From the NCBI GenBank assembly GCA_027943245.1, contig JANDJZ010001129.1, positions 1 through 11,296 of the forward strand: 11,296 bases of DNA. The letters are read 5' to 3'. Made by a program: the position numbers and the translations under genes. This document shows, piece after piece, positions 2,385 through 10,413 of this stretch. The stretch is from Acanthamoeba sp. SK_2022b. Taxonomy: Eukaryota > Discosea > Longamoebia > Acanthamoebidae. The notes under the pieces were generated by a model. It ran no database searches, had not been told where the DNA came from, and saw only the letters and a program-made list of their open reading frames with translations. Every line of letters begins with the position of its first letter. The first letter of the stretch is position 1.

Positions 2385-3120
2385 TTACTTGCGCGTCTTG
2401 CCTCCTCCCTTGTCGCTTTTCCTCTTGCCGCCGGCGTCGAGTTCGGCCTTCTCCTTGGCCACGTGGATGTCCACGAGCGGCACGCTGGCTAGCGCGCCTA
2501 TGCCGCCTCGACCGCGGCTCTCCAGGTAGGCCTTGGCGCACCGCTCCACCTGGCTACGGAGGCACACCACGAACTCGCAGCTGTCGTGCCCCAGCGCTCG
2601 ACACGAGAGCTCCACCACCGCCAGCTGCACGGGTCGCGAGCTCGGTCAGTCGCCGTGAACACGCTCTAAGAGAAGGGAAGGGGGGAGGAGGAGGGGCATA
2701 CGTCGGGCAGAGGAGTGTTGGCGGCGGCGGAGGTGGAGGGAGCCTTGGAGCTGCGCATGTGGCCGATGGTGGACCCCCTGCCGCTCCTGAAGCTCTCGAG
2801 TGGCTCGCTTTCGACTACCGCCCCGAGCTCGCCACTGTTGATGGGCGTCGCGGCCCCGCTGCTACTGCGGGCCTTGCGGAAGGAGAAGAGAGGCGTCGCC
2901 TCCGAGTACCTCTGCCAGCACTCGTTGAGGAATCCGTTGACGTAGCCCGCGGCCATCACGCACGCCGGCGTGCGCAGGTCCCTCCTCTCCCTCTTCCTCG
3001 CTGCCGTCGCCGGGCCGCCCCGGTCTGCGCCGTCCTTGGGCTCGGCCTTTGCCTTTGTCGCCTCCTCGCCTTCCAGTTCTTTCAAGTATACTATACGTAT
3101 CACAGATCAACGTTAGTTTG

Positions 3121-3153
<33 letters not shown>

Positions 3154-3764
3154 GAAGCCTCCATAGAGTTATCCATGACGAAGAGGACGTAGAGGCTCGG
3201 CGGAGCAAAGGAGCAGCTGAGTGTCGAGTAGTCAAACTTGACGCTGCCCCAGCCGGTGTAGGCCATCACGGTGGGAAGGCCAAACAGCAACAGGTCGGAG
3301 AACATCGACGGCGCGGCGTTGGCCCCGTTGCGGCCCGAGCTACCGCTGCCACTGCCGCTGCTGCTGCTGCTGCCGCCGTGATAGAGCGAGGAGAGGTAGT
3401 TGATGTCGACGCTCTTCTCGCTGACGAGCTTGTTGAGGAAGTCCTTTTGGTCGCTGCTCCCCATGGACGAGGCGAAATCGAAGAGGAAGTTGGTGGCAAA
3501 GACCTCGGCGCTGCGGCGCAGGTCGTCACGCTCGCGGTCGTCGCGTTCGCGCTCGGCGGAGGGGTCGTCGAGAGCCAGGCGCATGCTCGACCCGCGTCGC
3601 TTGAAGTCGCGCGCCGACATGGACGACTCGCCCTCCTGCTTCTGCTCCTCGAGCACCTTCTCCACGAGATCGACGAACTCGAGCGAGATCGAGCTGCCCC
3701 GCACAAAGATGTGTCGTTCGTTGTTGAGTCGCACCTCGCCTCTGGTCGGATCGCACGATATCTC
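2385..3764 (-). other. V4R domain 2, with long insertions
   Basis: Three exons (about residues 1128-1540) repeat the V4R-1 layout: GEVRLNNERHIFVRGSSISL; VFATNFLFDFASSMGSSD; GLPTVMAYTGWGSVKFDY; LFVMDNSMEAS; PACVMAAGYVNGFLNEC; LAVVELSCRALGHDSCEFVV. The Cys and Glu-x2-Cys-x7-Cys residues are all kept. It differs from copy 1 in low-complexity insertions: a charged stretch (SAERERDDRERDDLRR), a Ser/Gly run (about 3346-3374) and about 66 extra residues between the first Cys and the Glu. The protein ends in a Lys/Arg/Gly-rich tail (KRKSDKGGGKTRK). Confidence 0.82.
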
Positions 3765-3804
3765 CTGTGGCCGCGTCGTCCCATTACCAATCAGACCTAC
3801 GCAC

Positions 3805-3869
<65 letters not shown>

Positions 3870-6800
3870 CCTGGAACAGCTTGGAGAATTCTCGCCCCAC
3901 TTTGTGTTGCACGCTCCTGAGCTGCTTTAGCTGGTCCGGAACGAGGATGGGCTTGGGTCGTAGCTCCTCGTCCTGCCTGGGCGTGGCCGCGGTGAGCGAA
4001 TCGCCACTGGTCGAGGAGAGCTGGGCCGAGGGCTTTGTGGGGCTCCCCGGCGCGCTTCCGCTGCTGCTGAGCAGCGTGCTCTTCCCTGTGTTGGCCGCAC
4101 ACACACCCAACTGAGGAGTCAGCGGCGATTCGTAATATCTTGGATCGTGCACGAGGGCGTATGACCTTTGATGGACAACTTTCGCCTGAGCTTGGCGGCG
4201 GCCGAATCGGTATTGAGGCGAGGCGCCGTCGGGAGGTAGGTCTGCGGCCGAACGAAAAGAGGGGAGCAGAGCTCACATGTGAGTACTCGTGGGCAGGAAT
4301 CAAATTCGGGTTCGGCCTCGAGATCGGAGGCGGGTAGGTACCTGGGTGGTCGATAGGAACTGGGGAATGTACAGCGCCTCCTTGTGTCCCGGAGCCAGAT
4401 GCTTGTTCTCTGCAAAAAATCTGACGCAACCAACACCAGAGTGAGAACGGCCCTGCTGCTGGCTTGCTGAATGTCGCTGCACCGCTGCGCAGAGCGTTTC
4501 TCACAGGTGGTGTACCTAGTGATGTGGTCATTGATCTTGTTTTCAGTGGCCATCACGAATAGGCATCGCTCGTCGCCTGCGGAAGAGGATCAGGTCAGTC
4601 GACCTGGCCAGGACATGAAGGTAGAGCAGAGCACATGGGTGGATGTCTCACCCTTGGCTTTACACAGCAGCTCGACGGCGAGCAGCTCCGTCGGGAAGTT
4701 GAAACAGGAAGAGACCCAGCCGCTGCTGTAACCAGCGCCCAGGATGCACACGGGTCCCTTGGGCACGTTCTCCATCGTCTGTGGCGGCCACAATTGAATT
4801 TTGTTGAGCGAAGTGAACAACCAACCAACGCAATTCGACTCAACGCACGTTGTTGTTCTTTGTCGACGCCCAAGCGTCGGCTTCAAAGGAGAAGATGTGA
4901 TCGGAGTAGAGGAAGAAGGAGTCTCCTGCCTCGGGCCTGCCAGAATACGTATGGACCTCAGGGTTAGACGACAAAGCCCTTATGATATCCTTCGCTGCAC
5001 GAGATTGCTGCATGATCGAGCTGCGTACCTGGCCTGCAAGATTTCAATAAAGGCCCACCCAGTGTATGAAAAGTAGATGGGGCCAGCCAGCATCGTGTCA
5101 ACGCCTGGAGCGTTTTTAAGGAGGCACACGAGTGAGACAGAGCAACAGTATCCAGCCATGCGTGGGCGGAGGTCGGCTGAGGGGTACCGTTGGGGCACGA
5201 GGACTTCCGGGAGAAGTTGGTGGCGTCGGATTTGCCGAGGGCGTGCGCAAAGTCGAACAGGAACTGGAAGGCAAAGTCCTTGCTCTTGTCTCCAAAGTTG
5301 TCCTTCACCGCCTGGAAAAACTCTGCCGAGAGTGCCGAGGCCCTGTGTCCGCGAGCGGGCAGGAGTGAGACCCGAGTTCGCCCACTGGCATGTGCGGATT
5401 GCATCGCTCTGCAGGATACGTGAGCCCTACCTGAACAAGAGATACCGCTCGCCGCACACTTCGATGGTTCCGTTCTTGGCCGACTGTGAAGGGATCAAAG
5501 TAAGAAGAATCCAGTACAACGCAAAACAAACGCCAAGAATTTTTTAACCTGATAGCACTGGGCAAAGTATCGGTCGACGAGCGTCTCGGCTTTGGCCATT
5601 TGGTCCATGAGCTCCTCGGGGCCCTGGCAACGCGGGGCGTCATGGCCGTCCTTGTGTCGTCGCTGACGCCGTGACGACGACGACTTCTTGGGCTCGTCTG
5701 GCGTGGAACAAGATAAAACGTCAGCGAAAAGTGTTGAGTAAGATGGGACCCAACATCGAGGGATGGCTGCCAACCTTTGTGTGACCTCCTCTCTGTCGAC
5801 TTACGCGCGTCCCTATCCCGAGAGGCTTCTCGATCTCGATCCCGCTCCCTATCTCGGTCTCTGTCGCGATCGCGGTCCCTCTCGCGGTCCCTCTCCGAGG
5901 AGGACTTGTCCTTCTCTCGATCTCGGTCTCGTTCCCGAGAATCCGCTCGGATATCGCGAACCTCGCGCAGACCGGATGGAGTGCCGCCCTTGGGTGAATT
6001 GCCATCGCGGGGCGACGAGACCGAACGTCGGTCGTCACCGAGGGTGGCGTCGACGTTGAGCCGACTCAGCGACCGCTCCCTCGGTTCTCTCTTCTCTCGG
6101 TCTCGCTCTGACCGAGGCCGTTTCTCTTTGTCGCGTCCGATACTCGAGCGCTCCTTGCTACCGCTGCCAGACTTGGCTTCGCCATCCTTTCCCTGGAGGT
6201 CCGTGCTGGTCCCGACCGCTTGATCATCCACCGCGTCTGCTTCCAACGAATCCGAGCTGTCCCATCGTAAGTGCTCGTCCAGATCGCCCGAGTTTCGCCT
6301 AGGCGTGGAAAGTAACATGTACGGAACATGAACCATCAAGTTAGGGCGATGGTGATGGCTAGTCGTTGCAGAGATCGCACTTACCCTTTGGACCTCCTGC
6401 TTTCCTCTTTGGTGTTCCGCACCGGTGGAGGCTGCGAAGAGGAGCGCGGCGAGCTGGGTGATCGTCGAGCTGGCGAGGATGACAAAGTCTTGCCGTTGCT
6501 GCTGCTGGCCGTGACTGGCTTTGGCTTGGTCGATATTGAATCTCTCGAGGTCGGCCCAGTGAGGGAGATAGCAGGCACGTTGTTGCTGGACGTTTGTGGC
6601 GAACCACTTACAGCCGCCTGCTCTGATGACGCGGAATTGCCGGATGCGAGCGGTGGCGGTAAAGGGACGTTGATGGGTATCGCCAGGGGTGTCGACACAG
6701 CCGAAAGGGAAGACCAAGATGTGGACGGCGACAGCCCAATGGGTTGGGAGAGAGAATCCGTATCGTCGTCCTGCAGGCCAGCAGCTTGGTGAGCTGTGGG

Positions 6801-9069
6801 AAACCAAATGCGGGCGAAGCATGCGTACGGATTGAGTGTTATTGCTCTCGCTCTCGGTCTCGAATGATGCAGTGGCGTCCACCGCCGCATGTTCCGATCT
6901 GTTGTGCGAGACCAAGGGAGGGAAATTAGCAGCAATGCAGACACAAGAGCGGCGAGGCACAAAACGTACTTCTTCACCGTGGTCCAGAGGCTTGGCTCAG
7001 CCTTAAGCGAGAGCATGTAGAGGTCATCCTGTTGGGTCTCGCGTCGGTTAGGGTGTGTCTGTGTATGCATGATGAGAGAATGGAAACGCACCTCATTGTG
7101 AGAATCGTAGGCAGACAAAGCCTGCAGCTTCTGTTGTATCCTCTCGTCCTCCAGAATGGGGTAGTTCAAACTTTGGTATTTGGTGATGTCCTGCGTTCGT
7201 TCATAGAGCAGGCTAATAAGGTCAAAATTGATCGAGTTATCGGCCAAATAGGTCTGGTTGCCGTCGTAGATGAATGTAAAGTCGCGCAGATACAGTCCTG
7301 CACCCAGAAAAATGAGTCAGGCCTGGAAGAAGATGCATCGCACGCTGTACGACGTACCAAAGTAAGGAAACGCTGGGAGAGGTCTTGAGTTGAGCTCCTG
7401 TCTGTATTGTCTGAAGTTCTGCTTCGTGCCCATGATGGCCTCCAACTCGGAGAACTTGGTCTCATACTTGGTGGACAAGTTCTGTCGATGCGCAGAAGTT
7501 GCCGCAAAGAAATGATACGTTCAGCTTGGGGTGAAATAAAAGGTGTAGGAGTGCAGGAGCGTACCTCCCACAAACGCTTGAGACGTTGAACAGAGGAGTT
7601 GTTCAGGCCAGATAGGATTTCCATGAAAGAGTTGAAGTTGCTCAAAGACAGGCATTCTTCACCAGGCCGATAATTCAAAAATCGGTCAACCGCTTCAGAC
7701 AGGAGATGGAGAAGAGGAAAGGCAGTACCAGCAGCAACCTGAATGAACTTCTTTACAATTGTCAATTGTTCCTTCAAGCCCTTCGCCTGCACTATCTCGG
7801 TGGCAACCCAGTAGCCCACCTGTTGATGGAGAATGTGAGTACGCTTAGCGCACAGCAGTTGCAAACCTTAAATCAAGCGCTACCCTATTGAACTGTTCTA
7901 TCATGGCAGTGATGTTGGGCGCTACAATGCTCTTGCTGTCCTTCTTCCATCGCTGATTGAGAAACTCATCAGGCTTGATTTGGCGGAAGATGTTGAACTC
8001 GAATATCGTCAACTGTGCAGCGAGAGCCGCGGAAGGAAGCTGCAAGAGCTCAAAATCCTGTGGCAAATTCATCTGGCGACGCGTAAGAGCCAAACGTCGA
8101 ACAGGTCTGAGTAACAGCAAGCGAGACTCTCACCTTGCCTCTTCCGGTCAACAGTGTATCAGTGCTGACGGCTGGGAAGGCAGAACTTGACGCTCCGGGC
8201 ATCGGGGAGGTGGGTATGGGAAGAACGTTTAGTGCCCTCTCGTACGCGGTGAGCGCGTCCTCGGCCTGTCTAGGCGACGATCCCGGCTTTGATTTTGGTT
8301 TGGCCCTGTGCCAGCATGCGTCAGTACGAGGCGATGCTGCGCAGGCAGGAGGCTAGAGTGTCAGTGTACGGCTTCCATGCACGCTGCCGTGCGCGCATGC
8401 GTATGTACAGTAGCTTGAACTCGTTTGTGATGTCAATCCCTGACTGAAGGAGAGGTGAGCGTCTTCCCTTGCCAATCCAAGGAGAGTGAGCATACCCTCT
8501 CTTGTATTATCCGGAACATCTGTAGCAGCTCTGTGCGCACGAAGGACACTTGATGTTTGTCCAACCATTCTCGAAGGAAGGTAAGCATCCTGTTGCGGCC
8601 ATAGTCAGCCAATCAGCTTTCCTCATCGAAGATGTGCGTGAACGTGACAGCATTACCTTTGCGTCACAGATTTGCTCACAGGCTGGGGTAGCACGGTGGC
8701 CAGCGCGAGCTCAGAAGCCGTGCAGAGTTCTTCCCCCTTCGTTCGGGGTGCGAGCACAAACGTACGAAGTGGTTAAGGAAATCAAGTAATTCAATTATTT
8801 TGATGGTCTGGAGATTTAAGAGGGGTGGGGGGATGTTGAGGATATTCTTCCATCCATATTCGCAGGAGAAGTGACGGGGCTACATCCAGAATGCGATAGT
8901 TTTGGAGGAACGCTCGCACATTACCTGCCGCATTTGCACAAGGGATAAGATTTTGCGCGGGAACGGTAGGAAGCGTGCACGTACGAAGTTCGTCTTCCTC
9001 TTGCATGAGCCGCTTGGCCAGAGCTTGAAAACTATTCCTCCTCACATCCTCCACCGTGAGGGCTTCCAT
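2385..9069 (-). CDS. RasGEF protein with two C-terminal V4R domains, 29 exons
   Basis: One gene, about 1540 aa: a predicted Ras guanine-nucleotide exchange factor carrying two small-molecule-binding V4R domains. Exons, in transcript order: 9069-8985, 8924-8884, 8807-8766, 8709-8657, 8589-8496, 8443-8409, 8305-8134, 8072-7884, 7819-7729, 7656-7565, 7481-7358, 7297-7092, 7028-6970, 6898-6829, 6770-6385, 6298-5805, 5697-5549, 5483-5431, 5342-5188, 5104-5029, 4936-4849, 4778-4652, 4576-4516, 4420-4342, 4285-4166, 4110-3871, 3764-3152, 3090-2702, 2624-2385. All junctions are in phase and the total (4623 bases) divides by three. Domains: RasGEF_N (about residues 30-115), RasGEF (175-427), disordered linker (428-794), V4R-1 (795-1007), linker (1008-1127), V4R-2 (1128-1500). 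The start is the first ATG after an in-frame TAA. Weak points are the start, exon 25 (alternative acceptor at 4241) and the exon 28 acceptor. No signal peptide or membrane segment, so probably cytosolic. Confidence 0.85.
3123..3151 (-). repeat. (GT)n microsatellite forming the donor of RasGEF-V4R intron 27
   Basis: CA on the plus strand, so GT in the transcript. The run begins exactly at the exon boundary (exon ends TCAG at 3152), so the 5' splice site GTGTGT is part of the repeat. Length is 29 bases. Confidence 0.9.
3807..3867 (-). repeat. (CA)n microsatellite in RasGEF-V4R intron 26
   Basis: GT run of 61 bases on the plus strand, CA in the transcript, starting three bases inside intron 26 (3870-3765) after the donor GTTCAC. 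It is complementary in the pre-mRNA to the (GU)n of intron 27 across exon 27. Confidence 0.97.
3871..4285 (-). other. Ser/Pro-rich linker between the V4R domains
   Basis: Two exons give about 120 residues of low-complexity sequence (LSSSGSAPGSPTKPSAQL) ending in a more regular, probably helical piece (PDQLKQLRSVQHKVGREFS) that leads into V4R-2. The first exon is uncertain. Starting at 4285 keeps both phases correct, but a better-looking acceptor (CGGCCGCAG) lies at 4242 and would need a 41-base downstream intron instead. Confidence 0.6.
4342..5483 (-). other. V4R domain 1
   Basis: Seven exons (about residues 795-1007) form a complete XylR_N/V4R-type domain. Order: TIEVCGERYLLFR; FAFQFLFDFAHALGKSDAT; AGPIYFSYTGWAFIEIL; LYSDHIFSFEADAW; PVCILGAGYSSGWVSSC; LAVELLCKAKGDERCLFV. 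The last two blocks are the V4R signature: GYxSGW, then Glu-x2-Cys-x7-Cys-x-Phe. In bacterial phenol sensors of this family the equivalent Cys, Glu, Cys and Cys bind zinc and the domain holds an aromatic ligand; all four are present here. The fold is related to the TRAPP subunit Bet3. Confidence 0.88.
5549..6898 (-). other. Disordered linker with Ser/Pro and Arg-Asp/Arg-Glu repeats
   Basis: Four exons encode roughly residues 428-794 between the RasGEF and V4R parts. The first part is Ser/Pro/Thr-rich (SSSPARRSPSSPRSSSQPPP). The 494-base exon 6298-5805 moves through KEKRPRSERDREK into a long run of RD, RE and DR dipeptides (DRERDRDRDRDRDRER). This resembles the alternating-charge repeats of SR-like and U1-70K-type proteins, or a single charged helix. 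The junctions 6385/6298 and 5805/5697 preserve frame on both sides, which ties the RasGEF and V4R halves into one gene. Confidence 0.85.
6970..8072 (-). other. Catalytic RasGEF (CDC25 homology) domain
   Basis: Six exons encode about 253 residues matching the full length of a RasGEF domain. Visible landmarks: an opening PQDFELLQLPSAALAAQLT then FEFNIFRQIKPDEFL; MIEQFNRVGYWVATEIVQ; KKFIQVAAECLSLSNFNS and MEILSGLNNSSVQRLKRLWE, the most conserved block; LEAIMGTKQNFRQYRQEL; PYFGLYLRDFTFIYDGNQ; and the closing LYMLSLKAEP. No key block is missing, so exchange activity on a Ras or Rap family GTPase is expected (inference). Confidence 0.93.
8305..9069 (-). other. RasGEF_N (N-terminal Ras exchanger) region
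   Basis: Seven short exons give about 117 residues of helical sequence, then a Ser/Pro-rich spacer. NVRAFLQNYRIL followed by KIIELLDFLNHF resembles the family pattern of FLxTYRxF followed by ELLxxLxxRF. MLTFLREWLDKHQVSF followed by TELLQMFRII resembles the VLxVLKxWVExH segment. This module usually supports the catalytic domain structurally. Similarity is weaker than for the catalytic half, and exons as short as 35-53 bases make boundaries less certain. Confidence 0.65.

Positions 9070-9526: not shown

Positions 9527-10413
<887 letters not shown>

Follow-up and report, generated by a model that had tools for sequence, protein, structure and literature searches.

In the bacterial aromatic sensors MopR, PoxR and DmpR/CapR, a XylR_N+V4R module that responds to phenol-like compounds is coupled to a sigma-54 activator output. 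Ras exchange factors that are controlled by a small molecule within the same chain are few, such as Epac with cyclic AMP (cAMP) and RasGRP with diacylglycerol; in Epac (RapGEF3/4), the REM+Cdc25 core is placed under the control of a cAMP-binding fold. Here we describe a gene of Acanthamoeba sp. SK_2022b, located in a stretch of 11,296 nucleotides (contig JANDJZ010001129.1; hereafter the window), whose predicted product carries a RasGEF domain followed by two XylR_N/V4R units, V4R1 and V4R2. In contrast to the bacterial sensors, the output here is a Ras exchange factor and the units stand in tandem within one chain. In contrast to Epac, the putative sensor lies on the C-terminal side and has a different fold, and Pfam gave no match to a cyclic-nucleotide-binding domain in the 1508-residue protein at E ≤ 0.1. 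The catalytic core is common to the window protein, its relative P0001, SOS, Cdc25 and RasGRP, and we know of no V4R match in the regulatory parts of the last three.

In the hand-refined spliced model, the gene runs from 9069 to 2385 on the minus strand in 29 exons (Table 1), with all introns GT-AG (median length 76 nt) and a single terminal stop. The style of the introns, the base composition and the closely matching fragments P0037, P0038, P0040 and P0041 are in keeping with Acanthamoeba. The exon count and the 6385/6298 and 5805/5697 junctions are the same as those of an earlier note, which had read this DNA from its letters alone and proposed a Ras exchange factor fused to two V4R domains. 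Boundaries of exons 1-6 were placed on reading frame alone, with the exception of exon 5, which also appears in a spliced alignment driven by P0001. RasGEF (PF00617) scored 205.6 bits in Pfam against a cut-off of 23.1, over profile positions 2-178 of 181, and the domain matched 2ije (RasGRF1; E 3.6e-35), as well as Epac2 and SOS1, in the PDB. By these comparisons the catalytic domain is canonical, and exchange activity is predicted. V4R (PF02830) scored 45.4 bits for the whole protein in two stretches, above the cut-off of 31, while the units taken singly (22.7 bits, and 30.7 bits for V4R2) both lie below it; these two domain calls of the earlier note are borne out, the second at the level of the whole protein. 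XylR_N (PF06505) reached 18.3 bits at residues 786-877, under its cut-off of 23, and 24.4 bits in the bacterial relative P0015. A profile built from four V4R2 units matched a bacterial XylR_N/V4R profile at 99.9%.

P0001 is a complete open reading frame on one Trinity transcript (EukProt) and carries RasGEF, V4R and V4R in the order of the window gene; it alone, among the 14 matches of that search, has a V4R domain. The alignment driven by P0001 recovered the RasGEF exons, one of them beginning later than in our model, and the greater part of V4R1, but missed most N-terminal exons. Linker exons 15 and 16 are stop-free in their own frames, and the longest open run between 6900 and 5549 comprises 450 codons, compared to a maximum of 354 in 500 shuffles, although this run, being confined to a single frame, leaves some junctions uncrossed. 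The fusion also recurs within this genome of 45 Mb: C433 has the full RasGEF-V4R-V4R order, C785 (an incomplete model) has RasGEF and V4R1 but just the beginning of V4R2, as the contig ends there, and C257 carries RasGEF and V4R1, with a weaker linker that has one in-frame stop as read and a partly modelled V4R2. When the bacterial V4R protein P0015 was searched against the genome, its 13 rows at E ≤ 0.05 fell on exactly five contigs (C109, C433, C785, C257 and C671), and a Ras-regulator domain stands beside V4R on all five; two further protein queries yielded no contig beyond these. The Pfam V4R profile found C671 only, below the cut-off, probably because the exons are short, and the protein searches yielded the other loci. 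With the 1508-residue model, Pfam, P0001 and these loci, the presence of RasGEF and two V4R domains in one gene is confirmed. The genome holds a large RasGEF family (133 RasGEF exon matches over many contigs), with V4R on four of those contigs. A separate 1.9 kb contig from JGI (P0039) holds the last part of one V4R and the first part of another, and likely belongs to another eukaryotic tandem V4R protein.

On C671 the regulator is of the opposite kind: at about 16.7-21.9 kb, a RasGAP domain (48.4 bits when spliced, and also found in place) lies directly upstream of the V4R tandem. The same arrangement is seen in two proteins of the centramoebid Balamuthia mandrillaris, P0046 and P0056, in which RasGAP (47.2 and 63.7 bits) replaces RasGEF and is followed by two V4R units, the first identified by Pfam and the second placed by alignment. 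These are two of the 16 matches of that search, the remaining 14 carrying bacterial signalling domains. Both are annotated, one of them as Neurofibromin 1 by the source, and we found no description of either. The RasGAP part of the P0056 structure model is of low confidence, and its fold-match list is filled by the V4R unit with no RasGAP chain listed, and thus says nothing about the RasGAP fold. At the sequence level, the same tandem V4R module is present on both the on-switch (RasGEF) and the off-switch (RasGAP) of Ras.

Bacterial XylR_N-V4R proteins showed 35-44% identity to the module across 21 near-full-length matches. Some carry PAS/histidine kinase or sigma-54 outputs (P0015, P0042, P0052); their outputs are prokaryotic or lacking, and one unit per protein was seen. 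The four predicted zinc ligands (CECC) are conserved without exception in an alignment of 49 rows, which comprises 35 bacterial proteins, MopR and 13 units from amoebae; V4R2 of C785, cut off by the contig end, and the V4R2 units of C257 and C671, for which no clean model was obtained, are not among these rows. The MopR ligands, which we take to be C155, E178, C181 and C189, match the chain numbering in the structure comparison. A site of three Cys and one Glu is described for MopR (PMC10715001). Published ligands for DmpR are Cys151, Glu172, Cys177 and Cys185; the three Cys have the same spacing as our aligned columns, and the printed Glu number is two off the column used. In models of relatives, the fold class is that expected, with Epac2 as the top Foldseek match of P0001 by E-value; the model of P0001 V4R2 is poor. 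V4R shares its fold with Bet3 (PMC2253512), as was also seen in our structure comparison, and in mouse TRAPPC3 the zinc site is replaced (PMC10933270). Bet3/TRAPPC3, the V4R relative in Rab exchange complexes, was not the nearest relative of the module by fold or by sequence. Kinship with Bet3, invoked in the earlier note, stands as a shared fold and not as closest relationship, and an origin of the pair from TRAPP was rejected by the same comparisons.

In V4R trees, the V4R2 units of GEF and GAP proteins formed one group (99/98). In the best tree the V4R1 units came together as well, those of GEF and GAP proteins intermixed, but support for the group varied (88/90 when MopR served as outgroup, 46/92 when it was omitted). 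This fits a tandem that was shuffled as one unit between proteins that activate Ras and proteins that inactivate it, but approximately unbiased (AU) tests did not reject separate lineages for GEF and GAP, with either GEF-V4R1 (p 0.227) or GAP-V4R1 (p 0.312) held together, nor a single origin of all amoebal V4R units (p 0.435). Long branches are frequent among the amoebal units, and the program warned that long branches had been joined. In a RasGEF tree of 15 rows hand-picked from the many RasGEF loci of the genome, the V4R-bearing GEFs grouped with C523 (99/95), for which no V4R was found in the 9.9 kb fetched.

We propose, with a probability of roughly 0.58, that the window protein is a Ras/Rap-type exchange factor and that the tandem XylR_N/V4R pair governs its activity or location upon binding of a small hydrophobic or aromatic molecule. 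Such a ligand is suggested by the fold of the module and by its use in bacteria. By analogy with Epac, the ligand-bound V4R region would control the REM-Cdc25 core, an aromatic-sensor fold taking the place of the cAMP-binding fold. In DmpR the sensor domains form interlocked dimers, from which the signal travels along a coiled coil (PMC7264223). The two units of the window protein would probably pair within one chain in the manner of DmpR-type homodimers, with V4R1 the likelier ligand reader and V4R2 a more diverged partner. The same tandem on RasGAP, in this genome and in Balamuthia, suggests that the module could act as a shared input to the Ras switch.

Several observations weigh against this proposal. 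RasGEF_N (PF00618), called in the earlier note, gave no Pfam match in the window protein at E ≤ 0.1 (cut-off 28.3 bits); the call is left with P0001, which scored a sub-threshold 19.4 bits and whose model aligns with REM+Cdc25 chains over 22-428, the REM part being of low to middling confidence, and with a profile comparison at 65%. Many bacterial relatives carry no other Pfam domain, indicating that the module is not always attached to an output. More than 300 low-complexity residues separate GEF from V4R in the window protein, against about 85 residues in P0001, which makes a stiff DmpR-like coiled coil an unlikely signal path; rather than acting through a stiff rod, the V4R pair would more probably obstruct the catalytic face directly, or act through location or pairing. 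The pocket provides further points. His106 and Trp134 of MopR anchor the phenol hydroxyl (PMC10715001). The corresponding positions are Phe/His in 35 of 35 bacterial rows and in four of eight amoebal V4R1 units, that of the window included, and vary in the other four; V4R2 units are non-polar there (Met/Met in the window). The His/Trp anchor is thus missing from both window units, and phenol is not supported as a ligand by their sequences. Replacement of this anchor by Phe/His characterizes a bacterial-type XylR_N-V4R subfamily (P0015-P0035 and P0042-P0057, without P0046 and P0056), whose pocket is nearly invariant (LPFAVYHYSWCAF). Of its 13 residues, window V4R1 keeps 9, C433 V4R1 keeps 12, and the diverged V4R2 units 3 to 5. 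Special conservation of the pocket was looked for and not found: when sets of 13 control columns with the same degree of conservation in bacteria were drawn, their identity equalled or exceeded that of the pocket in between 27% (C433 V4R1) and 99.7% of draws, depending on which of the 13 amoebal rows was considered. A kept ligand can thus not be claimed from the pocket, even for C433, nor is there any indication that selection has specially favoured one ligand. Of the control of Ras by a small compound put forward in the earlier note, the architecture and the homology to bacterial sensors stand, while ligand control is a prediction.

It is conceivable, if on balance unlikely, that the V4R pair has a structural or targeting role, acting in dimerisation or in membrane or lipid binding like Bet3 with palmitate in TRAPP, and that it places Ras regulators without a ligand switch. 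Its presence on both GEF and GAP is what a shared address tag would lead one to expect, and the fold common to V4R and Bet3, the diverged, non-polar V4R2 pocket and the long linker of the window protein also speak for such a role. We consider it improbable that the pair is a degenerate remnant, folded and zinc-bound yet binding and regulating nothing: pocket columns of the V4R2 units and of V4R1 in P0001 and C785 do tend to be more diverged than controls, but the window gene, C433, P0001 and the RasGAPs of Balamuthia all retain the tandem order, the zinc-site residues are intact in 13 of 13 amoebal rows, and C433 V4R1 has its nearly complete pocket, albeit not above control columns. Finally, a wrong joining of two adjacent genes, for which an in-frame ATG in exon 17 just before V4R1 could speak, as could a model resting on the genome sequence of the source organism with linker junctions left unsettled by the P0001 alignment (exon 15 skipped, a 12-nt exon placed between 5805 and 5697), is rejected on the single P0001 transcript, the same order at C433, C785 and C257, the annotated Balamuthia proteins and the open linker exons.

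The features of the gene are collected in Table 1. The linker that follows the catalytic region is Ser/Pro-rich first and Arg/Asp-rich after. Introns 26 and 27 contain CA/TG dinucleotide runs near their donor sites (3806-3866 and 3124-3151). An adjoining gene on the same strand (9527-10413, exons joined by eye) encodes a phosphatase of the Y_phosphatase2 family (PF03162; 179 bits), and a convergent open frame on the plus strand (1914-2231) matches pfkB-type sugar kinases at their C-terminal end (46.9 bits).

Table 1. Features of the RasGEF-V4R gene, in window coordinates.
Feature	Position	Strand	Basis
Whole gene, 29 exons, 1508 residues: RasGEF + tandem XylR_N/V4R	2385..9069	minus	spliced model, Pfam, P0001-driven alignment
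RasGEF_N (REM)-like region, sequence-weak, residues 1-107, exons 1-6	8409..9069	minus	relative P0001
RasGEF (Cdc25) catalytic domain, residues 182-356, exons 8-12	7221..8024	minus	Pfam + PDB matches
Low-complexity linker, about residues 419-761, exons 14-17 (part)	5621..6898	minus	translation
V4R1 (XylR_N+V4R module), residues 762-998, exons 17-24	4342..5620	minus	Pfam, comparisons, alignment
Predicted zinc ligand C920 of V4R1 (MopR C155)	4746..4748	minus	alignment
Predicted zinc ligand E945 of V4R1 (MopR E178)	4671..4673	minus	alignment
Predicted zinc ligand C948 of V4R1 (MopR C181)	4662..4664	minus	alignment
Predicted zinc ligand C956 of V4R1 (MopR C189)	4563..4565	minus	alignment
Linker V4R1-V4R2, exons 25-26 (part)	3913..4241	minus	translation
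V4R2 with long low-complexity insertions, residues 1082-1470, exons 26-29	2502..3912	minus	Pfam + profile comparison
Predicted zinc ligand C1343 of V4R2	2960..2962	minus	alignment
Predicted zinc ligands E1434, C1437, C1445 of V4R2	2577..2612	minus	alignment

A full-text literature search, with thin coverage of subscription journals, turned up no description of RasGEF-V4R or RasGAP-V4R proteins, in agreement with the earlier note, which knew of no V4R-gated Ras activator; the main text of the A. castellanii genome paper (PMC4053784) mentions none of RasGEF, RasGAP, V4R and XylR. The parts are known; what looks new is that they are combined, and that this occurs on GEF and GAP alike. In amoebae, the Ras pathway steers feeding and movement. 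Tentatively, a sensor acquired from bacteria may have become a common chemical input on RasGEF and RasGAP in centramoebid amoebae; through this input, a single class of hydrophobic or aromatic metabolites, perhaps from prey bacteria, would set Ras-GTP directly and bypass surface receptors, with paralogs of diverged pocket reading different compounds. If true, a bacterial aromatic-sensor module on RasGEF and RasGAP would let chemicals act on Ras directly. It would also make the capture of a bacterial sensor, and the shuffling of domains among signalling proteins, open to experimental test, and would offer a naturally occurring model for Ras switches under chemical control. The occurrence of the sensor pair on the Ras-on enzyme and, in relatives, on the Ras-off enzyme type raises the possibility that Ras in these amoebae is set directly by small molecules.
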